Assembly: GCA_000697665.1 (NCBI GenBank)
Contig: KL197752.1
Location: 87,498-151,497 of the forward strand
DNA: 64,000 nucleotides
DNA from: Jaapia argillacea MUCL 33604
Taxonomy: Eukaryota; Basidiomycota; Agaricomycetes; Jaapiales; Jaapiaceae
Direction of reading: 5' to 3'
Below the pieces are notes generated by a model, which searched no databases, was not told the DNA's origin, and saw nothing but the letters and a program-made list of their open reading frames with translations. This document shows, piece by piece, positions 1 through 16,603 of the stretch. A program made the translations under genes and the position numbers. Position 1 is the stretch's first letter. The number at the start of each line of letters is the position of its first letter.

Positions 1-829
1 GGGGTTCTATCGCCCTTGTCTCTCCGCAAAGCGACGTGTATGTAGGTCACGACCAAGAGAGGGCAAGCGGTGTCTGATTCACCTTTTCACCACTTCCATC
101 AGTTTCCTTCTTGCCCAACCTTACACATTTAGAGACGACGCCCGGCCGTTCAAATTCCACTAGTGTTTCGTCGGATACTTAGTCAGTTCTTATGCCAATA
201 TTTACCTATCCCAAACTGCAGTCACTGATCAAGGATGTGGATGGGTTCTGCACAGCTTCGGAGCCAGTACAGACTTTATTCAAACGTTTGGCATGCGGAT
301 ATGGCCACCTTTCGGTGTAAGATGGAGCGCTGGGTGCCTGTTTGTAGCCTCGTGCATCCTCGCATCAATCAATGACGTGTTTTTGAGATCCTCTTCCCTG
401 ACTTTTGGAGAGTTGATCAGCCTATCAAACACTCATTGTTTATCTCTTGATCGTGGGAGGACATCATGACCCATGAGTTAGTGGGATCCATTGAAGATCG
501 ATATATGTACGCATCCCTGTCGCTGAGTCGAGCGCACTCGCATATCATCAGTCTCCGTCTCCGTCTTTGTCGAACTTAACCGCTTATTTGCGCAGGGTGG
601 ATGAGGAATCGGGAGAAGAACACAAAGCGACGCTCCGGTCACCTGAAGTCAAATATCGGTGGTTCTCAGTCGCCCAACCACCGCACGTTGGAGCTATGAC
701 CGTTCCTGTGCAAATTCACTCCTCTCGCAGTCCCTAAGCACTGCCTCCAGCCTTCAAGTCCTCACAAAATTCGGGGAGGAAGAGGGCTGATTATCGTCCT
801 GCCTGACATCTGCTAGGACCATCAAGTTG
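1..829. other. Left-edge region without a supported gene
   Basis: No reading frame here resembles a protein I know, and none joins convincingly to the gene that starts at 830. The last 150 bases or so probably hold the promoter and 5' leader of that gene. Part of the region could be the 3' end of a gene lying outside the window. Confidence 0.4.
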
Positions 830-3394
830 ATGGCTTCGCCTGCCTCTTCTCCTTTTGCGCCCCTTCCCAAAACAAGTCCCTCTAAAACGAATCCATCGCG
901 ACAACTCCGCCATCTTCAAACCCAAACTCTGAGCTGGCACATCGTCATCGTCATCGGACAACTAACTCTCATGGCATTTGCTTGGGGTTTCTATGGGGCA
1001 ATCGTTCGATATAACCAAATCACTCTACCCGATAAATTGGCGACGACCACATTGACATATCCACGCTCGACGACGGCCGTTGTCACAACAATTGCCACGA
1101 TACTTTCAATCGTCTCCTCATTGTATGTGTTACCATCTGTCATTTATCGTAGTTGGCGTTCTTATCCTCGTAGACTTTGCTCGCGAGCGGTTCGCTACTT
1201 GCTGGCATCCCGCCTTATTTCTCATAAACCCGTCTCCTTCTTCTCACTAAACGTGGGAATCGAATTATCCAAAAAATCTTTTGTCTTAAATCCTCGCCAT
1301 CCTTGGTGGGCCCTGGGCACGGCCGTCGTTGTTATCGCACTGAGCTCGCAAACAGCTGGGTTGGTTAGTCCTCAAACTTGTAATCATCGATTCTGATGTC
1401 AATTTAGATGGACCACCCTGCTAACTCCCACACCGATAACGGTGGAACGCTCCATCCATGGGACGGAGCTGAACATTGGAAGCCCTGCTTTTCGTGAATT
1501 CGTCGAAGCTAGATACCCTGCAGGAGATTATTATGACTATGAGGCGGGCGCAGGTACGACCGTCGACCATCTCCTCTACGGATATTTTTGCATGGATTGA
1601 CAACGCTGTAGGTTCATCTTTGGCAGGGGATGTCATCTGGCTTCCTACCGATATCAGCGGCATCGCATCTGCGGGTCGTCGCTTTGGTATTCCAAACATT
1701 ATCAACTACAATTTGGTGGCTTTCAATATCTCCACAGGTAAATCCATCTGCTCAAGAACCGTTCTTCGTCGACGTTGACCTTGCGCTTCGTCTCATGATT
1801 AGGAGGAATTCTCCCAACCGGCTCATCACAAACGGTTGGGTTCAACCATGGCATCTATGCTAGCGGTCTTAATTTTGTTGGGGGTCCAATTCTCAGCAAC
1901 TTTACTATGCAAGGTCCACCTCATGCAACGGGATTTACGAGCAATTACTCCCTCCTTCAGCAGGGATTCAGTGCCGACGTATCGTGCGAACAGCCCTCGG
2001 AGGATTATATTGGGCCACCAACGTTGAATACATCCTCATATACCTTCCCTATCACTCCTCGTGGTCCCGGAGACACCGATGCCTCACTCCGTAACTACAC
2101 GCAGTGGTCATGGTTTTTGAACTGCGCGGTCGGTACAGTACCACGTTGGTGAACGAATTCTATCTATCCCGACTCGAATCTGATGAGCTTTCTTCTCAGC
2201 CGATTACAATCAGGTCACTGCGAACAATACTGACGGAATATTCTGGGGCAGTGTATGTCCTTTCCAAAATACGAGTTCAACCAACACAAGTGGCCATGAT
2301 TCATCTTCACATTGTAGGTCCACAGGTCTGCCTACCCTTCTGATCAAATTTTGACACGACTTGGTCATGATAGTGGCGGTGATGGCAGGAGGAGGCAATT
2401 CGTACAACTTTCTTAACGGAACTATCTGTACGATCAAACCGAAACTCACAACAGTCCGCGTTGATTATACCTCCGTCGTCAACATCTCTGAAACGGTTAC
2501 TTCCCAAACCCACGTACCAATCGACTTCAATAGTCAATACAACATATCCAAATTTGATATTGGACAGTACACCGCCAGGACCTTTATGGCCCTCTTCTAT
2601 GGTTCGCAGAGTCTTTGGGGAAACTCCATTGGCAATGGCATTTCCTCAGTCTATTCCAGCCAGCCTCAGAGCCAAAATGGAACTAGCCAAGAGCAGGAGG
2701 CCCTTTTGAACGGTATTCTGGTGAGCAGTGTGAACTGATGCCCTGTATCCGCATTTCATGGTCCCTAATAGGAGGATTACCTGAGGGGACTCGTTGAGTT
2801 TGCGGCAACAGTAACCCGTCTTTCTCCTGGATTGTTAGATTCGAGTTGATTTAGTTACTGTAGGACTTACGGTCGGGGTTTTCGACGAGCGGCGTGTTCC
2901 CGGATGACAAGATCCCCGAAAACATGACCGTCAGCTATAACGGTACTCTTTTCGCAGGGACCATGGGATGGCAGCACCACGAATCCTCAATATCCTTCTT
3001 CATCCTGATTCCCATGACTGTAACAGCCATATTGTCCATCGTGATGGTTTGCCTTTCGCTCAAATATCGGCAAGGGTATGAGGATGTCACAGTTCGTGGA
3101 AAGAACGGTTCTCCTGAGTCATTCGACCCCACGCACGCGCTCCATCTGATCTTAGCATCCTCTGGGCGCGGACTCGCTGATGCTTTTGATTCGGAGGACT
3201 TCACGAGGAACGAAGGGATGGCACTTCGGCTCCGGTCCACCTTGGAGGGTCCGGCATTGGTCGAAGCGGGGCACGGCTCTCTGAAGCAGAACCGTGCTTC
3301 CTCTAGTGATCATACTCCTTTGCACGCCCAGATGGGGAATGATGGCGATTACCGGGAAGAATCCACCCCATCGACTGCCCTGAAATCATTCCAA
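830..3394 (+). CDS. Multi-exon membrane protein with large outward domain, unknown family
   Basis: I do not recognise the family. Exon 1 (ATG at 830) encodes a Ser/Pro-rich N-terminal tail, then hydrophobic segments around residues 38-58 and 84-105, and a further one after about residue 160. The following exons (from about 1410, 1619, 1801 and later) join with GT...AG introns of 45-60 bp. They encode a long soluble region with many N-x-S/T sequons (for example NYT, NFT, NGT, NIS), as expected of a glycosylated domain outside the cytosol. The last exon starts near 2865 and has one strong membrane helix (FFILIPMTVTAILSIVMVCL) followed by a roughly 100-residue polar tail. Basidiomycete genomes commonly hold orphan membrane proteins of this architecture; a role in transport or sensing would be a guess. 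Exon limits between 2140 and 2870 are uncertain. Confidence 0.6.
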
Positions 3395-4221
3395 TGAATG
3401 TTGACACTTGAAATACATCCAGTTTGATACTTTGGATTGGTCGACTTCTGAACTGCCTTTTTTACATACGCATGGGCCACATTTTGTGTCGGTTTTCTTC
3501 TCGGTTTAGCGTATTTGGATCCCTGTACGATATACGATACACACAGATACACACAAAGACGGTCGAGAAGACTTATGGAATGTCCATCCCGCGAGTGAGT
3601 CTGTGCGGAGGTGAATCGTAGTGGCTTCATGGACAGATTGGTCGGACAGGCAAAAAGGTAGGAAACGAAGTATGCGCACAGCATCGCGATTGTGCGTGTC
3701 CGTAGGCCGATGTCGTGGTGGTAGTCATACACAACGCAAGACTCGGAGAAGAAAGGATTGTCACACCTCTTCGGGAAACCAAATTGCCCAAATGGAAACA
3801 TCAGAATCGTTGGTGGTGATTCTGCTGTCTGTGCCTTTTCGCTATCGTATTGTTATTTGCAGCCCAGCGTCGCTTCTACATTGCAAGTTCGGTAATCGGC
3901 CAGTGAACAGGTTGAAAGGGATGGGTCTGCACATGTCGTCAAGAGAGAAGAACCTCCCTTTGGAAATCCATTGCCTTCGAGGGCTAGCTGAGGGATGGCT
4001 TTTTGTTCGACAAGGGTAGGCCGGGCGAAGAATAGGTCTGAGAGAGCTCGGAGGAGGAGAGCTTCGAGGGGATGGAACAGCGATGAGAATGTTGGAGCGG
4101 AGGTGCTCACCATGTTTTGAGGAGGAGCAGTCGGAGGGTCAGCGACACCATAGTAATCAAGTCGAAAAATGATCGGACTTGGAATCGGCGATCGCGAGCA
4201 CAGCCACAACTTTGACTTTGC
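3395..4221. other. Intergenic region
   Basis: This stretch lies between the membrane protein gene and the ZNHIT2-like locus. Frames are open for up to about 150 codons on either strand, but none shows a recognisable motif, intron structure or plausible composition. It probably holds the 3' UTR of the upstream gene and the old promoter of the ZNHIT2-like locus. Confidence 0.4.
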
Positions 4222-5828
4222 ATGGCTTCCTCGTCCGTTTCCATATCTGTAAGCCATCGCCATTAACCGTCTACGATGCCTCTAACCACTACATGTTGCC
4301 TTAGCTGTCGGGAGACAGTTCGCAAAATACAGCTGCCCCACATGTAACCTCCCTTACTGTTCCCTCACTTGTTTCCGTTCAGAGTTACGTCTACCTCCTT
4401 CCTCCGCGTATCTTAATTAAATTTAGTTCTGAAGTCACACAACCATTGCTCCGAATCTTTCTACCGGAAAGAACTCGAAACGGACATCCAATCGTCCCCT
4501 TCCAAGACCGCGGAGGAAAGACTAAAGATGATGGAGGTTCTTAGACGGTTCGAGCAAGACCAACTCGAGGTAGAGGGTGATCTTGAAGACGATGGCGAAG
4601 ATGAAGACGAAGAGGCAAACGGGGAAGAGGAGGAGAACGATCTCAAAAAACGAATGAAGAACGTCGACCTCAGTACGTCCCCCGTCCCTCCCTCCCCTTC
4701 TCCCCAGTAACTCTCTCCACCATCATCAGATTCAGCATCACCAGAAACCCTCTGGTCCTTCCTAACCCCCTCCAAACGCACCACATTTCTCGCAGCTCTC
4801 ACAAACCCCTCATCCGAACTAACCCAACAACTCCTCTCCTCCTCCGATCTCGAAACAGAACTCGTAGAGACTTAGTGGGAAGTCCCCGAAATTGAAGAGG
4901 ATGGCGATCTCGATGAAATTGGTGCTGGCGAAAGGGAACCACAAATGTGCATAACCATTCCACCCAACCTAATAAAACCCCTCCCACTCGGCTCACCCCT
5001 ACTCTATAACATCTGCGCAATCACGTAAGTCCACCCACCCCTCTCCTCACCCTACCATAATAATCTCTTACAGCATCGCATACGCATACACATCCCGCCA
5101 TCTGTCCCTCTCCCCCCTCTCATCGCCCTCGGAAGAAAACGAAGAACCAGCAAAACTCCTATCGACCCTAATCCCATTCCTCATCGACAAGAAATCAACA
5201 GTCAGATTCGAGAGTCTAGAAAGTGTGATTACAGATCTATGGGCTCGGTTCAACCAAGTCAGTCTTCCATCCATCCGCCATCGCTCACACAGCACCATTC
5301 CTCCTCCCGCCACCTGACCTGAACCTAAATCTAATACCACCTTGTTTCTTCCAGGGAACGATATCACCCTCCTCATTCTCAACCCTCCTCAAAGATACCT
5401 CCAATCTCATCTGACCATCCAGAATCACTAAAATCACATCCCCATCTACCCAGAAGTCCAAAAAAACACCGGAAGATCCCACCACCTCAAAACAAGATTT
5501 CACATCGCACCCCTCCCGAAAAATCCTTCTCGTCCTCTCAGATCTTTACTCCCTATTCTCTCCTCCCCTACCTTCCGATCCACCAATACCGATATCCCCA
5601 CCACCATCTCCACAAAACGCCCGCCCACACACCCCTAAAACCCACATAGCCCACAAAATAACATTCTACGCCTCCCAAATCCTCTCCACATCTCCTTTCA
5701 TACTCGACACCCTAGCAAACGAGTTGGAAGTTCAGGCGGAGAGTATGATATTGGAAGAGCTGGAGGTGGGTGGGGAGGTCAAGAGGGTGCGTGGTGGAGA
5801 GGAAGCGAAGATTGTAGAGTTGGCTTGA
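4222..5828 (+). pseudogene. ZNHIT2: ZNHIT2 (HIT zinc-finger protein 2) homologue, apparently inactivated
   Basis: ZNHIT2 is an R2TP/HSP90-linked factor for U5 snRNP assembly. The homology is collinear over the whole gene. It includes the zinc-finger half AKYSCPTCNLPYCSLTCFRS, a segment ending in KTAEERLKMMEVLRRFEQ, an acidic stretch, and the C-terminal parts IAYAYTSRHL, FLIDKKSTVRFESLESVI and HKITFYASQIL, ending at a stop at 5826-5828. Introns lie at about 4669-4729, 5024-5073 and 5259-5353. Three defects are seen. The first CxxC pair (CLSC, about 4297-4308) is one base out of frame with the rest of the finger. A TAG at about 4873 interrupts the exon where WWE would fit. A TGA near 5416 replaces a residue, probably Arg. 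Both stops could come from single C:G to T:A changes. Sequencing error or very unusual introns are the alternative. Related 3' fragments lie at 13.1 and 13.6 kb. Confidence 0.72.
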
Positions 5829-5986
5829 TCTTATCGTTGATCAGCTTTTCCTTGTTCCTTTCCAGGCTCGTATGGAGTCCCACCAAAAGTTCGGGTCAAC
5901 ATTATGAGTTTAGCATCCACTCGCACGACAATAACTCGTACACGACAGTCCATTCCGCCAGAAAAATAGTAGAAGGAATAGGTCAA

Positions 5987-8193
5987 TCAACAGGAATCAA
6001 AAGCAAAGGTAGTCTGCCACGATCCATCAATAATTCCACCGTTTAGTTCCCATCGCGGAGTCGCTAGGATGGCATCCTTGTGAGCATCAAAACTAAGAAT
6101 GAAGTGCGAATACGTACAGTAGCGAGGTCACGACAATAATTGGGAGCATTCGCGTTCGAGGCATATTGGACGATGTAATCATACTGCATTTGAGGTCAAC
6201 GATGAGCGTCCTGGTGGAAAACCCAATTATAGGTACTCACGACTCCCTCATATTCGGCGACCAGGTTCTGTTTGGAGAGACTGGAAAGGATTGAAGGTGC
6301 ACAAGGTCAATCTTAGCCGAGAATCGCAAAAATGACAATTACGCACAGATGATCCTGATAAAGCCGCCCAATCATATAAACCATCCCAGCATCTCGCAGG
6401 CCAGCATTCTTCCGGTCTCGACTATCAGTGTTGTGGGTTACAAAAGTGTTGAAGAAGTAACTCACCATCTCATAAGGCATCGGCATTGCGGAGTCAACGA
6501 GCATCTGAGTAGAAGGCGTCATCTTTCCTGGCTCCGCCCATGACAGGTACAGGCCCATATCGCCGCGACGTTGGTTACCGTTGGCGATGAAATAGTTGGT
6601 GCCGCCAATTGCAATTTTGACTTGCAGCGGTGGTGTTAATCAGGCTTTCACAGGAGAGGCGAAGGGACTGCACTCACGAGAAGTGTACATGGCGTTGAAC
6701 CACTCCGGCGATTGACGGGCACCATTGCCAAAGTTGTCTGTGAAAGCCTCGGCGAACGCTCTCATCTTAGCAAAATTTTTCGCCGGTGGATTAAATGCAT
6801 CTGCTCCTTCGATGATTAATGATGTCAACTGCTCGCCGCAAAGCAACGGATTGTCCACGGTTAACGAATCGAGAACCGCATTGACTGTAGCTCGGTCAAA
6901 CTGGATAACCTTGACCCCGAAACGGTCAGGCTCCCTCCTGCGCTGCCCGAAAACGGGCCGTTCGAAACGCCAAGATTCAAATTTGCTGGCGACGGGCTCG
7001 ACAGTGGGGTGTTCTTGGAGGTAACGCAACCCTTCTTCAGCCTGATGCTGAACGAGGTCGAGGACGCGTCCACAGTCTTCTTCCACGTTCAAGACGCAGA
7101 TATCGAAGAAGACCTGGCTGTCGCGCCCGATGTCGCATTTGTAGGTGATGCTGACGTCGGGGCACTTCTCCTTCCGAGGAAGGGTTCGGGCATACGCGAC
7201 CAACCAAGCGGTGAGGAAGGACTTCAAACTCTCTGCGAAAAGCTTCCCCTCTCCCTGACCGCGCCTAGCCGAATCACCAGCGAATTCTTGGTACCTCGTG
7301 ACGATAAGCTGGAGAGTAGAGGGAAGGAATTTGTGACGGTTGGAGTCGTCGATGCCTGGTTGGGGAACGGCGATATCGAGGTTGTTAGGATCGTAGTCCT
7401 GGTCGCCCTTGAATATCGCCGCAACGTCTACGGTCTCGATGGGGTTGTAATATTCCAAGAGATGGTTGCCCTGAACCTGCTCCCATAGCTGATCACGGAT
7501 GCGACGCTGTGTCCCTATGTCCACCCCGCCGTATAGAGTCTGGACAATGCCAGTAACGTCGTTGAGGTTGAGGTTGTCCAATTTCGCTGACGATATGACG
7601 AGCGAACAAACGACGACGTTCTTGGTGATCGAGGTGAGCGACTTGGAAGTGTATTCATACGAGTAGAAGTCGGCATCGATGCGGCAAAGGCCACCAAGCT
7701 CTCCCGTGGTGAGAGCATATATCGTAGTCGAAGATGCATTGGCAGAATAATTGCCCAATAGGTATCCCAGAGCGGAACCGACTATGGTGTTAACTCCCTT
7801 TTGCTGCAAGAGCGGAAGATGGGGTCAGACGGGGATGTCAATCGGTGCTCAACTGAGAAACTTACCACGTCTCCGCTGATGAATGCCCCAAGGGAATCTA
7901 AAGGAAACAGTTGAGTACAGGGCAGTTTCGGGGTAAGAACCTTCCGTACCAGAAATGGCGCTCGATACATCACTTGCATTGTTGGACACACCACACTGGA
8001 AATACTGGTATTTGTAGATCACCTTGCTGATCGGCACCAGACCTGGGTCAAATTGAGGGGAGATGACCCTCTGGTAAAAGGTGTCGATGCGAGTTTTGGC
8101 GACTTGAGTGAGCACGTTGAGGGCGTCGTTAGCCTCCTTCTCTTGCTCCGGATTTTCAAGGGATTTCTTGAGTGCAGAGATCGTGGAACCCAT
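5987..8193 (-). CDS. Paralogue A of an unrecognised two-copy gene family
   Basis: I do not recognise the family. Exon 1 is 8193-7950 (MGSTISALKKSLENPEQ start, a helical charged region), exon 2 is 7897-7866, exon 3 is 7803-6678 and encodes most of the protein, and three or four short exons follow to about 5987. All introns are 50-70 bp with GT...AG ends. After exon 2 a Gly/Ala/Ser-rich, weakly hydrophobic stretch (NTIVGSALGYLLGNYSANA) is followed by a beta-like region with TKNVVVCSLVISSAKLD. The C-terminal half is helical and polar and ends near GRLYQDHL and NYCRDLA. There is no signal peptide and no firm transmembrane helix. Conserved cysteines include those in KYQYFQCG and VVVCSL. The last exon is read in a different frame from that of copy B, so the C-termini differ and that exon is uncertain. 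Intact frames in both copies argue for function. Confidence 0.7.
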
Positions 8194-8275
8194 GTTGTTA
8201 GCGCTGAGATTGATGAAGATGTGAACGATTGCCGAGTGGTTGATTGGTGATGTTGCAACCGAAGGAGATCAACGA

Positions 8276-8283
8276 TACTTATA
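8276..8283 (-). promoter_or_regulatory. TATA-like element of gene A
   Basis: TATAAGTA on the minus strand lies about 83 bases before the ATG of gene A. The equivalent place in copy B reads TATAAATA, and the sequence from there to the ATG is almost identical in the two copies. This fits a core promoter kept in both. Confidence 0.5.
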
Positions 8284-8957
8284 CCCAACGGCCTCCGCAA
8301 ACTGCGGTAGATTGACATAACCAGGGGAGGTTTGCAAAGCCCCCAATGGTCATCCATGGATTGTCGTCTTCACCGCCGTGAGACTCGGGGCTAGGAACGA
8401 GATCGCTGTCGAGTGACCATCCAGAACCGATGCGACCACTGGGGCATTGAAACAGGGACAGAACAACCGCGAAGTACGGACGCTGCATGTCGAAAGTGCG
8501 GAGGAAGAAGATCACCGTGTCCCATTACTCCAACTTAAAGTTTGGCATTTTGATAACGGTCGATGTAAAGAAGCCGGACGACGGCACGGACGATGCTGAC
8601 GCAGGAACGGCGACGCACTTGGGGACGCCTGACCCGTAGGTGACGGAAGGTGACAAGAGCTTTCTCGACGGATATTCAACTGAATGCCGTAAGGTACAAC
8701 TTCGCAATATCCACCCAGAGTGGCTGTGCAATATCGATGGGATCTAAAAATATGTCGCCGGCGAAGTCGCTGTTGAGGTGAAATCCGCGATACGTGCAAG
8801 ACAGAGATACAAGAGTTGTCCCGACGAAGACGGAAAACATAGGCGAGGAGGATGAACGATGACTCTGATAGAGACGATGGTGTAAGACAAAAAGCGTCTT
8901 GTAAGGTCAGGTTAAGAGGCTCGAGGAATGGCGCCATGATTCAAGTTGGCAAACTCG
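8284..8957 (-). other. Conserved block upstream of gene A
   Basis: This 0.65 kb block matches 12,472-13,165. A 142-codon minus-strand frame (ATG at 8937, stop before 8512) and a second frame (8731-8525) share short stretches with copy B, such as SGVPKCVAVPAS against SGVSKCVAVSAS, and GWSLDSDLVPSP against GWSLDSVLVPQP. The matches shift between frames, so I read it as a decayed or non-coding copy of something once coding, or as a long upstream regulatory region. No function can be assigned. Confidence 0.35.
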
Positions 8958-9640
8958 AAAGAATGTGGGTTTCAGCCTTGCAGTGATCGCCAGGCATAGT
9001 TCTTTGTAGTCAGGTGTCGGCGCTAGACTCAACGCCACCTGAGGATAGAAAACGACCCGGGCCATGGGGTGAGGTCAGTTGGGGTGAAGGACAGAGGAAG
9101 ATGGATACACGCTGATAGCCAAATCGTACGGATGTGCCGTCAGGTGGCTAGCGAGTCGGCGCTGGACTGAACGACACCTGATAGAAACCCGTGAATGCCG
9201 TCACAGGGTGGGTGAGATTGAAAGCGGGATTGGGCAAGAGGGTGAGTGCGCAGATATTGCTGGTCAATTGCAATACCTGGAAATATTGTCAGCTGCAACC
9301 TGGAAAAAACTAAGAAGCAGAACTTGCAATTTTTATTCAACAACGCAGATGATGAACCTGTATCGATCGAAAGGGCGGAGCTTGTGTCGAAGGCATGGAG
9401 GCCCGACACTGTCCAGCACTGTGGTGTCTTGGTGTCGGGCATAGCTGGTGATGGACGGAGGAAAGGCCGGACAGTGTAAAACTGGATGCTTTGTCCATTC
9501 CTTTATATACGTATATACGTTGCCCTGGGGATTGAAAGTTCGCTAATCAGCCAATCATATCGGGTGGGTGGGCTTGTGCATAGACAAAGGCATGGAGCGT
9601 CGAAGAAATGATCGTCGTTCCCTTTGGGGCCCTGTATGCG
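8936..9640. repeat. Duplicated block with two palindromic-core units
   Basis: This block resembles about 14,987-16,110. Shared landmarks are atgattcaagttggcaaa (exact, 8937-8954 and 14,988-15,005), repeat cores at 9010-9042 and 9140-9181, and a stretch around 9255-9320 containing ttgctggtcaattgcaatacc that matches about 15,560-15,620. Similarity fades towards 9640. A minus-strand frame with ATG at 9442 could be a small gene, but it does not hold in the other copy. Confidence 0.55.
9504..9520. promoter_or_regulatory. Overlapping TATA-rich palindromes
   Basis: TATATACGTATATA at 9504-9517 is a perfect 14-base palindrome, and ACGTATATACGT at 9509-9520 is a second one overlapping it. Read on the minus strand it gives TATATAAAGG about 60-70 bases ahead of the ATG at 9442, so it could be a TATA box for a small minus-strand transcript. 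No direct evidence of transcription is visible. Confidence 0.3.
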
Positions 9641-10074
9641 CAAGATAACGCGAGTTCTAACTTGGCCGAGCAACCGAAGTCAACTCTGCGTAAAAGTAGT
9701 ATCCATTGAGCTCAGTCTGACATGCAGGCAGTTCTTCGCGATCGCGGGTGTCCTATCAGTATCAGTGCCTCAAGATATCCTTGAACCAGAGAGTCGAATC
9801 TAGGACGGAATGGACGGGCTCGCAAAGCCCGAGGAATGCAACTGCGACCACAATGACGTCACGACATACGTTCTTCAAGAGGACTCCATTCCGGGCCCCT
9901 GTCATTGTTCTGACATCCTGCAAGTAGGGCATGTAACTTAAACTACTTAGACGAGCACTATCCATCGCTCTAGAGCACTACCCACACGCTCTTGGCGGCC
10001 TAGTGACCCCATGCGACGCCGATCAGACATTCTGTTGGCACTTCCTCGTTCGCTTCGAGACCACTGCTTGAGTT
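9641..10074. other. Spacer between duplicated copies
   Basis: Nothing recognisable is seen between the repeat block and the left limit of copy B. A 67-codon minus-strand frame (9965-9762) has no homology that I know. Confidence 0.35.
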
Positions 10075-10217
10075 AATATTATGAGTTAAACATTCACTCG
10101 CACTACAATATCTCGTACACGACAGTCCATTCCGCCAGAAAATAGTAACAGGAATCAGCCACTGAACAGAAATCACAATCAAAGGCAGTTTGCAGGATTC
10201 ACCAATAGTTCAAATAT

Positions 10218-12382
10218 TTAGGCCCCGTCTCGGAGTTGCTGGGAGGGCATCTTTGTGAGCATCCGATCCAAATATCTGAGAATGAAGTGAGAATACGTAC
10301 TATGGCGAGGTCACGGCAATAATTGGGGGCAGCATTGTTCGTGGCATATTGGACGATAAAATTATACTGGATTGGAAGTTAACGATGAGCGTCCTGGTGG
10401 AAAACTCAATGCTAGGTACTCACGACTTGGGTGTATTCGGAGACCAGGTCTCGTTTAGAGAGACTGGAAACGATTGAAGGTGCACAAGGTCAATCTTAGC
10501 CGAAAATTCAAAAATGACAATTACGGACAGATGATCCTGATAGAGTCGTCCAAACATATAAACCATCCCATCACCTTGCAAATTGCCATTCTTCCAGTCT
10601 CGACGATTAGTATTGTGGGTCAAAAAAGTGTCAAAGAAATAACTCACCAACTCATAAGGAATCGGCATTATGGAGTCAACGAGCATCCGAGTAGGATCAG
10701 TCATCCTGCCTGGCTCCGCCCATGGCCAGTACAGGTCCATATCGCCGCGGAGTTGTTTGCCGTTGGTAACATAATAGTTGACGCCGCCAATCACAAGTTT
10801 GACTTACGGCAATGGTGTTAATCAGGCCTTCACAGGGGTGGAGAAAGGAGCTGCACTCACGGACAGTGTACAAGGCATCGAACCATGGCCTTGTTTGACG
10901 GGCGGCATTGTTAAAGTTGTCTGCGAAAGCCTCGGCGAATGCTGTCATCTTGGCTACCTTTCGCGCGGGTGGATTAAACGCATCTGCGCCGTCAATGACC
11001 ATTTGAGTCAACTGCTCGCCGCACAGCAATGGGTTTTCCACGGTTAACATGTCGAGAACGGCGTTGACTGTAGCTCGGTCAAACACGATGACTTTGTCCT
11101 CCTCACCGCCAAGGACCCTCCTTCCCTGCCCGAAAACGGGCCGTTCGAAACGCCAAGACTCGAATTTGCTGGCGACGGGTTCGACAGTGGGGTGTTCCTG
11201 GAGGTAACGCAAGCCTTCTTCAGCCTGGCGCTGAACGAGGTCAAGGACGCGTCCGCACTCTTCTTCCACGTTCCAAACGCAGATATCGAAGAAGACTTGG
11301 TTGTCGCGCTGTGTGTCACATGTGTAGGTGATGCTGACATCGGGGCACTTCGCCTTCCAAGGAAGGGTTCGGGAATAAGCGACCAGCCAAGCCGTGAGGA
11401 AGGACTTCAAACTCTCTGCGAAAAGTTTGCCCTCTCCACGACCACGCCTAGTCGAATCCCCAGCGAACTCTTGGTACCTAGTGACGATAAGCTGGAGAGT
11501 CGAGGGAAGGAATTTATGGCGGTTAGAGTGGTCGAGGCCTGGTTGGGGGACGGCTTCATCGAGATCGGTAGGATCGTAATCCTGGTTGCCCTTGAATATC
11601 GCCGCAAGGTTTGCGGTCTCGAGGGGGTCACGATATTGCAAGAGATGGTTGTTGCCCTGAACCTGCTCCCATAACTGATCACGGATGCGACGCTGTGTCC
11701 CTATGTCCACCCCACCGTATAGAGTCTGAACGATGCCAGTAACATCATTGAGCGTAAGGCCGTCCAATTTCGCCGACGAGATGACTAGCGAGCAAACGAC
11801 GACGTTCTTGGTGATCGAGGTGAGCGACTTGGAAGTGTATTCGTACGAATAGAAGTCGGCATCAATACGACAGAGGCCACCAAGCTCTCCTGTTGTGAGA
11901 GCATATATCGTAGTCGAGGATGCATTGGCAGAGTAATTGCCCAATAAATATCCCAAAGCGGATCCAACTATGGTGTTGACTCCCTTTTGCTGTAAAGGAG
12001 GAGAATGGGGTCAGATGTGGGCAGCGTGGATGGGTGCTCCGCTCAGACACATACCACGTCTCCGCTGATGAATGCCCCAAGGGAGTCTAACGGTGTCCTT
12101 GAGTACAGGAAAACGGCGAAGGTAGGAGCGTTGCTTACCAGAAATGGTCTTGGATACGTCGCTTGCGTTGTTGGATACGCCACACTGGAAATACTGGTAC
12201 TTGTAGATCACCTTGCTGATCGGCACTAGACCTGGATCAAATTGAGGGGAGTTGACCCTCTGGTAAAAGGTGTCGATACGAGTCTGTGCAACTTGAGCGA
12301 GCACATTGAGGGCGTCGTTCGCCTGCTTCTCTTGTTCAGGATCTTCAAGGGACTTCTTGAGTGCAGATACTGTGGAGCCCAT
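10218..12382 (-). CDS. Paralogue B of the unrecognised two-copy gene family
   Basis: The exons mirror those of gene A: 12,382-12,139, 12,086-12,055 and 11,989-10,861 (1129 bases against 1126 in A), then shorter exons to a stop at 10,218-10,220. The ATG context and the first 45 residues (MGSTVSALKKSLEDPEQ) are almost the same as in A. Kept features are KYQYFQCGVSNNASDV, the Gly/Ser/Ala-rich GYLLGNYSANASS, VVVCSLVISSAKLD, TLYGGVDIGTQRR and a helical C-terminal half. Differences are spread out, with small indels in multiples of three, which is the pattern expected under selection at the protein level. The final exon is read in a different frame from that of A and ends sooner. Function unknown; soluble and cytosolic by default, since I see no signal peptide. 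Confidence 0.72.
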
Positions 12383-12463
12383 GTTGTTATCGCTGAGATT
12401 GATGAAGATGTGAGCGGTTGCCGAGTGATGGTTGGTGATGTTTCTACTGAAGGAGATGAACGA

Positions 12464-12471
12464 TATTTATA
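12464..12471 (-). promoter_or_regulatory. TATA box of gene B
   Basis: TATAAATA on the minus strand lies about 82 bases before the ATG of gene B, at the position of TATAAGTA in copy A. The sequence between this element and the ATG is strongly conserved between the copies. Confidence 0.55.
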
Positions 12472-13075
12472 CCCAATATTCTCCGCGAGCTGCGGTGGTT
12501 GGCATAACCAGGGAGGTTTGCGGAGCCCCTACCAGATGATCCATTGCCAGGTTGTTGCCTTCACCACCGTGAGCTTCGGGGCTGTGGGACGAGAACGCTG
12601 TCGAGTGACCATCCAGAAAAGGTGAAGTTCGCCACATCTGCGACTTTTCCATCGAAACAGGGACAGAACGACCGGAGAGTACGGATGTCTGTGTCGAGAT
12701 TGCGGAGGAAGAAGATCACTGTGTCGCATCGACATATAAGTAAGTCGGACACATTGGTGACGGTCGATGGAAAGAAGCCGGGTGATGCTGACACAGCGAC
12801 GCATTTCGAGACGCCCGACCTGCAGAGCGATGAGATGGAGGCAGGAGGCATTCCTCAAAGCATGATACGCAACGGAATAAGGTACACTTTCGCCATAGAC
12901 CCCGAGCCTAGTGGCTGTGCAATTGGTCGTCGGCGAAGTCGCTATGGTGGGGGATTCCGCGATACATATTGATCTCGGAACGACAAAGACGCAAAAGTGG
13001 CCCCGACGAAGACGGAATGCAGCTACGTAGGTGAGGAACCTATTGAACACGATGACACTGATCGCGATAGACATG
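12472..13075 (-). other. Conserved block upstream of gene B
   Basis: This is the copy B partner of 8284-8957. A 181-codon minus-strand frame (ATG at 13,074) begins with a hydrophobic stretch and keeps AFRLRR as in copy A, but matches jump between frames elsewhere. It may be a relic gene or a long upstream region; coding is not supported. Confidence 0.35.
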
Positions 13076-13104
13076 GGTGTTGTAAGACAAAACGCTGGAG
13101 ATCA

Positions 13105-13227
13105 ATTTCGGAGCGCGAGGCCCGAGGAACTCGAACAGCATTACGAGTCAAGTTGGAACTTCTGGCGGAGAAAATGATATCGGACGAGCTGCGAACGAGG
13201 GGTGAGGCGAGGATTGCAGAGGTATAG
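13105..13227 (+). pseudogene. 3' fragment of a ZNHIT2-like gene (fragment 1)
   Basis: The plus strand reads LELLAEKMISDELRTRGEARIAEV and then a stop. It lines up with the end of the ZNHIT2-like locus at 5725-5828 (LEVQAESMILEELEVGGEV, later GEEAKIVELA and stop), with an internal gap of about 8 residues. Only the last 30-40 codons are present. It sits at the right limit of duplication copy B. Confidence 0.55.
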
Positions 13228-13780: not shown

Positions 13781-14471
13781 AGATGATAACGTTGTCTTGA
13801 TTTTCGGGTGGATTGAGGTGATACGTGTCGTTGATCACTGGGTTGGACGGCCGGCGTTGATGATTCCTAGTGGTAATAAGCGGTAATAATCATGATGGTC
13901 ACGATTACTGCCAACTTGGAGACTGTAGGTTGTAGGTTAGGGCCTTCTACAGGGCCGTAATATGTTTGTCACTCCATGGCGATTTCAAGAGACTGAGCTG
14001 ATGCCTGTGCTCTTTCTTCTACATACGTAAATAATCTACTAAAACTACAGCTAGTTGTCGATATTAGTAACTACTTATAAACATTCTGACCTACTTTACG
14101 GTACACTATACCAGGGCCGAATGGAGACGGTATAATTGACGTATGAGGGTCGATTCGTAGAATGTGGAGGGTACTACATATGTAGAAAAAGCCACACAAG
14201 GCAAGGAAAAGAGATTCGGAGCCACTGGGTTCAAAAGAGCATTTTTTTCAAGTTCGTCAACATCAGCCAAAGTATTAGTCAAGGTAAACACATACCAGAG
14301 AATCCCCACTAAATGAGAATCTAAACGGGAAGGTTGGGAGGAAGGCGGAAGGGACTCTGCTTCACTTGAGAAGGATCGACGGATGCTCACGACAACACCG
14401 GCACCATATGGATCAAGTGGCAAGGAGGAAGGTGGGTATTCAGGCTGAACGCCATACGATGATTTTTCGTA
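13781..14471. other. Region without a supported gene
   Basis: A 105-codon minus-strand frame (14,423-14,106) has no recognisable motif, and its start lies inside sequence that is repeated about 580 bases further on (14,340-14,450 against 14,925-15,030). I therefore treat it as repeat-derived rather than as a gene. Confidence 0.35.
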
Positions 14472-15497
14472 GGCAGGTAGCTAACATCGACTCGTTGGGG
14501 TCAACGACACCTGATAGTTAGGTGATAGCGATTGGAATGAGTCGGAGAGGAGAACGCGGGAATCCGATAGCCAGAGGGTAGTTGTTTGTAGTCAGGTGGC
14601 CTACAAGTCGGAGCTGGGCTGAACGGCACCTGATTTGGGACCACGGAGGCCACCGTGTGAGGGTGGTCAGGGTAGTGGGAGGAAGAGATGGAAGGCGGCG
14701 GCGGCGACGACAAGGACGAGCAGGTGGCCAGCGAATAGGTGCTCGGTTCAACGATACCCAATAGAAGTCCGGTGAGGGTTGTTAGGATGAGGGAGAGGGG
14801 GAAGGCGCCAGGGCATTCGGGCTAGTAGCCAAGGATGATTGTTGGTATCCAGGTGCCCAGCCTCAACTCTCTGGGCTCAGTGATACCTGGAAGAACATAG
14901 CCGAGGCCCCCTGGTTGAGGCAGTGGAGAAGTATGCTTCGCTTGAGAAGGATTGACGGATGCTCACGACAACACCCGTAGAATCATGATTCAAGTTGGCA
15001 AAGAGGAAGGTGGGTGTTCGAGGTGGTGGCCAAAGGATAGTAGTTCGCATTCAGGTGGCAAGTAAGTCGGCGCTGGGCTCAGCGACACCTGATAGACAAC
15101 GGCCAAGACTGTAGGTGAGGGCACTTGGGATGAGGGAGAGAGGAAGGCGGGCATTCGGGATGATAGCCAAAGGATGGTACTTCGTATTCAGGTGGCCAGC
15201 GTCGACTCGCTGGGCTCAACGACACCTGATAATTAGAATATGGCGAAAGCCATCGGAAGAGGGCGACTGGGATGAGACAGATGGAAGCATGTGGGTATTC
15301 GCGCTGATAGCCAGAGAGAGTTTCTCTTAGTCAGGTGGCCAACATATCGGTGATGGGCTCAACGACACCTGACTCAGAACTACAAAGGCGGCGTGAGGGC
15401 CGTGAGAATGATGGAAGAAAGGGATGGAACGGAACGACGGTGGTGACAACGACGAGCAGGTGGCCAGCAAATGTGTGCTGGGCTCAACGACACCTGG
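14472..15497. repeat. Degenerate array of about eight units with a palindromic core
   Basis: Cores of 41-43 bases lie at 14472-14514, 14592-14633, 14721-14761, 14848-14890, 15051-15092, 15188-15229, 15331-15372 and 15456-15497. Each begins with (T)CAGGTG, usually followed by GCCAGC, and ends with GCTGGGCTCAACGACACCTG(A) or a close variant, so the ends form inverted repeats (CAGGTG/CACCTG and CCAGC/GCTGG). Units are spaced about 120-145 bases, with one gap of 203. Spacers also share phrases such as gatagccaaagg and gtgagggt. A higher-order period of about 740 bases is suggested by the pairs 14592/15331 and 14721/15456. Two further cores lie at 9010-9042 and 9140-9181. No terminal repeats or transposase were found. 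Confidence 0.8.
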
Positions 15498-16603
15498 TCG
15501 AAAGCCGCGAAGGCCGTCAGGCAAGGCAGAGGGGATGGTAGGACAGCGAGGAGCAATTATTGCTCATCCAATTGCAACGCTTGGAAATGCGTCAGCCGCA
15601 GATTGGAAGTGAGCAAGAAGTAGACGTACTGAGTTCAACCGATACATCGGATGATGCAGACACATAGGTCGAACGGGTGGTTGGAGGTGTAGAAGACTGA
15701 GCGGTCTGCCGCTGTCTATAACTGACACCTTATTCCGAGAGATGGTCTTGAAAAAGGGTTAACTCACCATAAACCCTGTCAACATCATGGATGGTCGTTG
15801 TCCATTGCTGGACTCGAAGGGTCGAGGGTCATCGCCGACAAATGTCAGTGACCCACATCGTCGAACGTAGCACTATCTTTCGCAAATTCGCGGGAGGGCG
15901 GGAGTCGATAGGGAGGTCGACCACAGTGGGGGAAGGAGGAAAAGAACGGATGTTGAACTTGACGGTTTGTCTGCTCTTTTGTACGTTGCTGGAGGTTAAA
16001 AGTCCGATGGTCAGCCAGTAAACACATGGGGTATGTTTGCATGTGAATTGGGCAATGTTGTCGTGGTCGTCATAGGCAGAAGTGAACGAAGCGCGAAAGG
16101 ATCTTCGCCCCCTTTGGAGAAACCTAGTTTCCTAAACTGGACCACCGAAATCTGGGGTTGTACCATGCGACTTTGCTTTCCATCAATTCAACGTCTGACG
16201 TCACGAAACCGGCATCTTTATCAATGACTAGTGACTTGGACGGGGAGACCTGAGGGAGAGTTAACGCGCTATGACAAGGCACAAATAGAGCATCCAACAA
16301 TATGATCCTGCCTAGTTTGGCAATCGTCACGCTTTCCACGTGATCTGGCCTTGTCACATAACAACTTGAAGCGCCCTGTTCATTAACTTATCGCTGTTTT
16401 CACAAGCTGTTCGCGAGTAAATTTTCATACAATGGCACTTTGAAAAGTTTATGTCACTAGAGCATGCCAGGGCCTGAGTCACGGTAGCGCGATTTGAGGG
16501 CAGAGCTTGGAAGAATTGGCACGGACTCGGACATCATCGGGGGCCGGCTGGAGCGCTCACTCCTTGTCCAGTGCCTTTGACTGGATCAAAGGGAAGACTC
16601 TAC
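15498..16603. other. Repeat tail and intergenic region
   Basis: Up to about 16,110 this resembles the block at 9200-9640 (ccaattgcaacgcttggaaatgcgtcagc against caattgcaatacctggaaatattgtcagc is an example region). From there to 16,603 nothing is recognised; the promoter of the next gene is probably in the last few hundred bases. Confidence 0.4.

Follow-up and report, generated by a model that had tools for sequence, protein, structure and literature searches.

A gene family in Jaapia argillacea whose N-terminal module evolves slowly and whose C-terminal module evolves faster

The full-length copies of a gene family in the basidiomycete Jaapia argillacea MUCL 33604 begin with an N-terminal module (residues 1-204) that evolves slowly and end in a C-terminal module (approximately residues 393-581) that evolves faster, and the C-terminal module also exists alone, as an open gene. 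Such an arrangement is suggestive of functional genes, one part of which is fixed and the other variable. Two of the copies, genes A and B, lie within the window (the whole 64,000-nucleotide stretch of DNA that was analyzed), and the family as a whole comprises at least seven genes: six full-length copies (A-F) and a stand-alone C-terminal gene (G).

Exon structure and upstream regions of genes A and B

Gene A extends from 8193 to 6043 on the minus strand of the window and encodes 581 amino acids; gene B, on the same strand, extends from 12382 to 10218 and encodes 582. Each has eight exons separated by seven short introns. Their features, in window coordinates, are as follows.

5895-8895, repeated block with gene A, 80.4% identical to 10072-13095
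10072-13095, repeated block with gene B
8194-8323, minus strand, upstream region of A with TATA-like box, aligned with the other six family genes
8193-7950, minus strand, A exon 1, with start codon and N-terminal module (MGSTISALKK...)
7897-7866, minus strand, A exon 2
7803-6678, minus strand, A exon 3, with the rest of the N-terminal module, the middle region and the start of the C-terminal module
6620-6466, minus strand, A exon 4
6408-6347, minus strand, A exon 5, donor inferred from phase
6280-6241, minus strand, A exon 6
6183-6118, minus strand, A exon 7
6063-6043, minus strand, A exon 8, with stop codon
12383-12512, minus strand, upstream region of B with TATA-like box, aligned with the other six family genes
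12382-12139, minus strand, B exon 1, with start codon
12086-12055, minus strand, B exon 2
11989-10861, minus strand, B exon 3, 1129 bases
10802-10648, minus strand, B exon 4
10590-10529, minus strand, B exon 5, donor inferred from phase
10463-10424, minus strand, B exon 6
10366-10301, minus strand, B exon 7
10238-10218, minus strand, B exon 8, with stop codon

The two blocks, each about 3 kb long, are 80.4% identical across 3,080 aligned columns. The original prediction, made from the letters of the window, held that A and B keep a common exon pattern with near-equal long exons and open frames, and the gene models agree: all eight exons and all seven introns of A have counterparts in B, exon 3 measures 1126 bases in A and 1129 in B, and each spliced frame is uninterrupted up to its stop codon. 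It also placed the leader and TATA box almost identically in the two genes, which was borne out. By our count by eye, the start of the TATA-like box (TATAAG in gene A, TATAAA in gene B) lies 90 bases 5' of the ATG in A and 89 bases 5' of it in B, and the upstream regions of all seven family genes can be aligned around this box, that of F most loosely. It further noted that introns and flanks had diverged. The introns are 84% identical between A and B, a divergence no greater than that of silent sites (dS 0.42).

Exon-5 donors were located through the reading phase; the sequence at this junction is GTCCGT or similar in most of the copies on contig C44, on which A and B lie, and GTGAGA at the matching junction of F. 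With these donors placed by phase, the splice sites of the five full-length C44 copies are GT-AG, apart from one intron in copy D (locus L004). The donor of its intron 2 reads GC (GTG/GCAAGT) where A, B, C and E have GT, making it a probable GC-AG intron.

Further copies in the genome

Copies were sought throughout the window's own genome (43.7 Mb in 95 contigs) by DNA search and then by protein searches with B and F as queries. Besides A, the DNA search identified five places on C44: B, C (L002), D, E (L005) and a C-terminal piece (L006). Copies C, D and E are open to the stop codon and encode 585, 583 and 585 amino acids, respectively. The protein searches added a divergent full-length paralogue, F, on contig C4 (L034:4014-6490), which encodes 684 amino acids, has a longer proline-rich linker, and is 48-50% identical in amino acid sequence to the other full-length copies. 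F keeps the eight-exon plan, which, together with an open frame, is common to all six full-length copies. Read without splicing, F has a frame that meets no stop in introns 1 and 2 and ends only shortly after exon 3 (632 amino acids from stop to stop), so that retaining these introns would alter the residues encoded there and not stop translation.

L006 is not debris and reads as a gene, G (C44:14762-13864): its frame stays open for 195 codons and is split by five introns, and it joins MSSTGG straight onto the C-terminal module and has an upstream region that aligns with those of the family. The C44 members lie within approximately 86 kb (13864 to 99879). The tandem duplication originally predicted is thus present as a repeated block of about 3 kb, but the pair is not isolated, with further copies on C44 and on another contig.

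Several similar copies on one contig could in principle reflect an assembly or haplotype artefact, or a set of decaying copies. We regard this as scarcely credible: A and B are separated by a dS of 0.42, the copies occupy separate places, their spliced frames contain no internal stop, and the splice sites on C44 are GT-AG save for the GC-AG intron in D (exon-5 donors being phase-placed).

The surroundings of the window copies have features of their own. The stretch 802-9384, which includes neighboring genes as well as A, has an inverted partner some 31 kb away (C44:48001-57005) that carries E; its pieces correspond to 802-2896 (76% identity), 3971-5885 (83%) and 5711-9384 (77%), and the partner, examined as far as 48001, may extend beyond. 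A cluster of diverged repeats of approximately 40-360 bases occupies 14358-15519 and has a relative at 8935-9203, just upstream of A. The gene adjoining A (approximately 4290-5830, plus strand) encodes a Cys-rich stretch and then HNHCSESFYRKE. By eye, it resembles a HIT-type zinc-finger gene; one frame of it, searched against Pfam, gave no match above the cut-off.

Selection differs between the two modules

Values of dN/dS were calculated by the NG86 method from spliced codons, leaving out the last few residues of C and E and taking F without one residue there. The original prediction proposed that A and B are both in use and named dN/dS between them as a check. The A-B comparison gave a dN/dS of 0.23 (dN 0.096, dS 0.424), which supports selection on both copies, and all six full-length copies are open. 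Over the whole protein, dN/dS ranged from 0.14 to 0.33 among the ten pairs of full-length C44 copies.

These whole-protein values conceal a gradient. In all ten pairs of the five C44 copies, dN/dS was 0.04-0.08 for the N-terminal module (residues 1-204), whereas for the C-terminal module (residues 393-581) it was 0.36-0.60, and within no pair did the bootstrap intervals of the two modules overlap (200 replicates). Gene conversion was considered as a source of the likeness among N-terminal modules and rejected for the six pairs that do not involve E; there dS spans the same range in both modules (0.19-0.48 in the N-terminal and 0.22-0.47 in the C-terminal module), which argues against homogenization of the former. 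In the four pairs with E, dS was about twofold higher in the C-terminal module (0.64-0.76) than in the N-terminal one (0.31-0.38), so part of the contrast in these pairs may be due to recombination or conversion, and E may be a mosaic.

Because F has diverged too far for dS to be reliable, its gradient was read from amino acid identity to the five C44 copies: 64-68% over residues 1-204 and 36-46% over residues 381-581, with the end of its C-terminal module (residues 468-581) still 42-46% identical. G compared with the five C44 copies gave dN/dS values of 0.32-0.45.

These results would also fit an ordinary lineage-specific family, in which the N-terminal module is essential (for example, in a structural or developmental, membrane-associated role), the C-terminal module is weakly constrained after duplication, no recognition role exists, and G arose by deletion and has stayed open by chance. 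We consider this a serious contender whose chances fall somewhat short of even. Consistent with it are the C-terminal dN/dS of 0.36-0.60, below 1, the position of the copies in duplicated blocks, one of them inverted and taking neighboring sequence along, and the domain searches described below, in which PADLOC was empty for two N-terminal modules and Pfam cut-offs were not reached. Against it, the C-terminal modules are open with intact splice phases in all six full-length copies and in G, and the identity retained at the C-terminal end of F, together with the dN/dS of G, indicates real constraint on this module.

Domain, structure and N-terminal features

No Pfam family reached its cut-off for the full-length copies or for G, and searches of NCBIfam and of PDB sequences with the family proteins gave no match; a PADLOC scan of two N-terminal modules matched no defence family. 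PF23706 (Rv1893-like) was matched weakly by each of the five C44 copies, with a best E-value of 0.043 (A, residues 70-104; 14.1 bits, short of the gathering cut-off of 27), and was not matched by F. Pfam holds models for HeLo, Goodbye-like, NACHT and NB-ARC domains; none of these was among the matches listed at E ≤10 for the five C44 copies and F, where HMMER filters drop most matches above approximately 0.1. Many multi-copy fungal genes lack a named domain. In the portions of the literature on fungal effector, orphan and incompatibility families available to us, the family was not found, which does not by itself prove it unpublished.

AlphaFold models were too poor to be used, and we treat them as uninformative. 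Exon 3, with only A and B as input (85% identical), gave a mean pLDDT of 34, and a 118-residue middle piece, with two similar input sequences (85% identical), gave 57. Foldseek with the latter model returned nothing at E ≤0.001; its best match (0.09) was to an OsmC-like protein.

All six full-length copies start with MGST[V/I]SALK. The PROSITE N-myristoylation pattern PS00008 fits B and F, the two copies tested, and the alignment shows by eye that A, C, D and E have this start in common; G starts with MSST and has no glycine there. The start of the full-length proteins resembles an N-myristoylation site. Averaged over 19 residues, hydropathy peaks at 1.39 in B and 1.47 in F, which is low for a classical membrane span. 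From this combination of a myristoylation-like start and low hydropathy we propose a lipid-tethered intracellular protein.

A likely distant relationship to a phage protein family

When whole proteins were searched against PHROGs v4, the one strong family was phrog_25382, a phage-protein family of 231 positions with no assigned function, which was matched by all five C44 copies. The isolated N-terminal module of copy E matched it co-linearly (E-value 2.7e-9; profile positions 7-163 to residues 12-165), as did those of B (3.7e-9), A (1.3e-7) and F (1.7e-4), and the reversed copy E used as a control did not match. At its widest, the co-linear likeness takes in residues 11-168, the greater part of the N-terminal module. 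Full-length F gave no match; a 92-residue piece of F likewise gave none, and the same piece of copy E gave 0.0022. An exon-by-exon genome search gave weak E-values of 0.09-0.18. At E ≤10, two of 14 control genomes matched the family in the search that included phages EA1 and PG216, and none did in the exon-level genome search at E ≤10 or in the stricter prokaryote searches. Among the five copies, phrog_992 (two copies, best 0.026) and phrog_30214 (one copy, 0.17) were also matched; both were set aside as near chance level, the reversed control having reached 0.29 and 0.36 with two other families.

The N-terminal module is likely a distant homologue of phrog_25382. The original prediction of an unrecognized family stands as far as Pfam, NCBIfam and the PDB are concerned and is qualified by this likely relationship. 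The fungal proteins differ from the phage family, with which they were compared by profile alone, in having at least 370 extra residues and introns, and we do not file them as members; they are likely distant relatives through the N-terminal module. Nor do they reside in a phage or prophage: all are genes with introns, located on large contigs of a genome of 43.7 Mb.

Domestication of a phage, bacterial or mobile-element protein might explain why phrog_25382 alone, among the libraries that were scanned, matched strongly; the N-terminal module would have arrived by horizontal transfer, gained introns and been fused to a fungal C-terminal module. Searches for a donor lend this little encouragement, and we judge it improbable. 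Searched by tblastn, the N-terminal modules found nothing better than an E-value of 2 among 50,697 phage records (5 and 7 records matched, all at 2 or worse, and were read as chance) and nothing among 72,556 plasmid records. Two of the phage records, Enterococcus phage EA1 and Vibrio phage PG216, contained no match to phrog_25382 at E ≤10, and scans of viral and GTDB contigs, each restricted to a pair of short peptide patterns, did not confirm any relative.

No convincing carrier of phrog_25382 emerged from a sample of 1,621 prokaryote genomes, in searches that had no positive control and so do not show absence. At E 0.001, the family was matched in 0 of 398 genomes from the phylum of Paraburkholderia, 0 of 395 from that of Flagellimonas and 0 of 396 from that of Streptomyces (no positive control in any), and in one of 398 from that of Neobacillus, where the match (E-value 1.4e-4) was partial, covering profile positions 40-98 only, and is unproven. 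A lone match in 34 assorted prokaryote genomes (E-value 0.025) was rejected, the frame there appearing sigma-factor-like by eye. A profile of the N-terminal module (A2) at E 0.01, again with no positive control, matched 0 of 125 genomes from the order of genome G023 and 0 of 122 from that of G019.

Discussion

We tentatively propose that these genes encode a membrane-tethered intracellular family in which a constant N-terminal output module is combined with a partner-binding C-terminal module diversified by duplication. The protein would be held at a membrane by N-myristoylation of its MGST[V/I]SALK start. The constant N-terminal module, probably distant kin of a phage-encoded domain, would carry a common biochemical activity, such as assembly or action on membranes, and the C-terminal module would bind a partner that differs among copies or shifts over time. 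If both roles are as proposed, duplication on C44 would have yielded a few paralogues that share an output but differ in specificity, as in recognition or defence families. As a decoy or regulator, G could then engage the partner and produce no output.

Several considerations temper this proposal of a tethered, recognition-type protein. A C-terminal dN/dS below 1 is as compatible with relaxed constraint as with diversification, and the putative phage link comes from one unnamed family. We regard the proposal as about as likely as the ordinary lineage-specific family set out above. A bolder version would make this a novel fungal intracellular recognition or defence family, in which a lipid-anchored, near-invariant executor of ancestry shared with a phage-encoded domain is coupled to a fast-changing recognition domain, with G as decoy or regulator; this we think unlikely. 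The asymmetry in selection, the stand-alone C-terminal module and the likely distant phage relative offer handles on whether the family has a part in the poorly known self/non-self recognition or antiviral defence of fungi.

A comparison can be drawn with fungal allorecognition and cell-death proteins of the HeLo, Goodbye-like and NLR types (PMC9815663). The present family differs from these in giving no Pfam match to such domains and in that no nucleotide-binding domain was found. The likeness lies in the general plan only: a duplicated family in which the N-terminal module of each member is conserved and the C-terminal part varies more.
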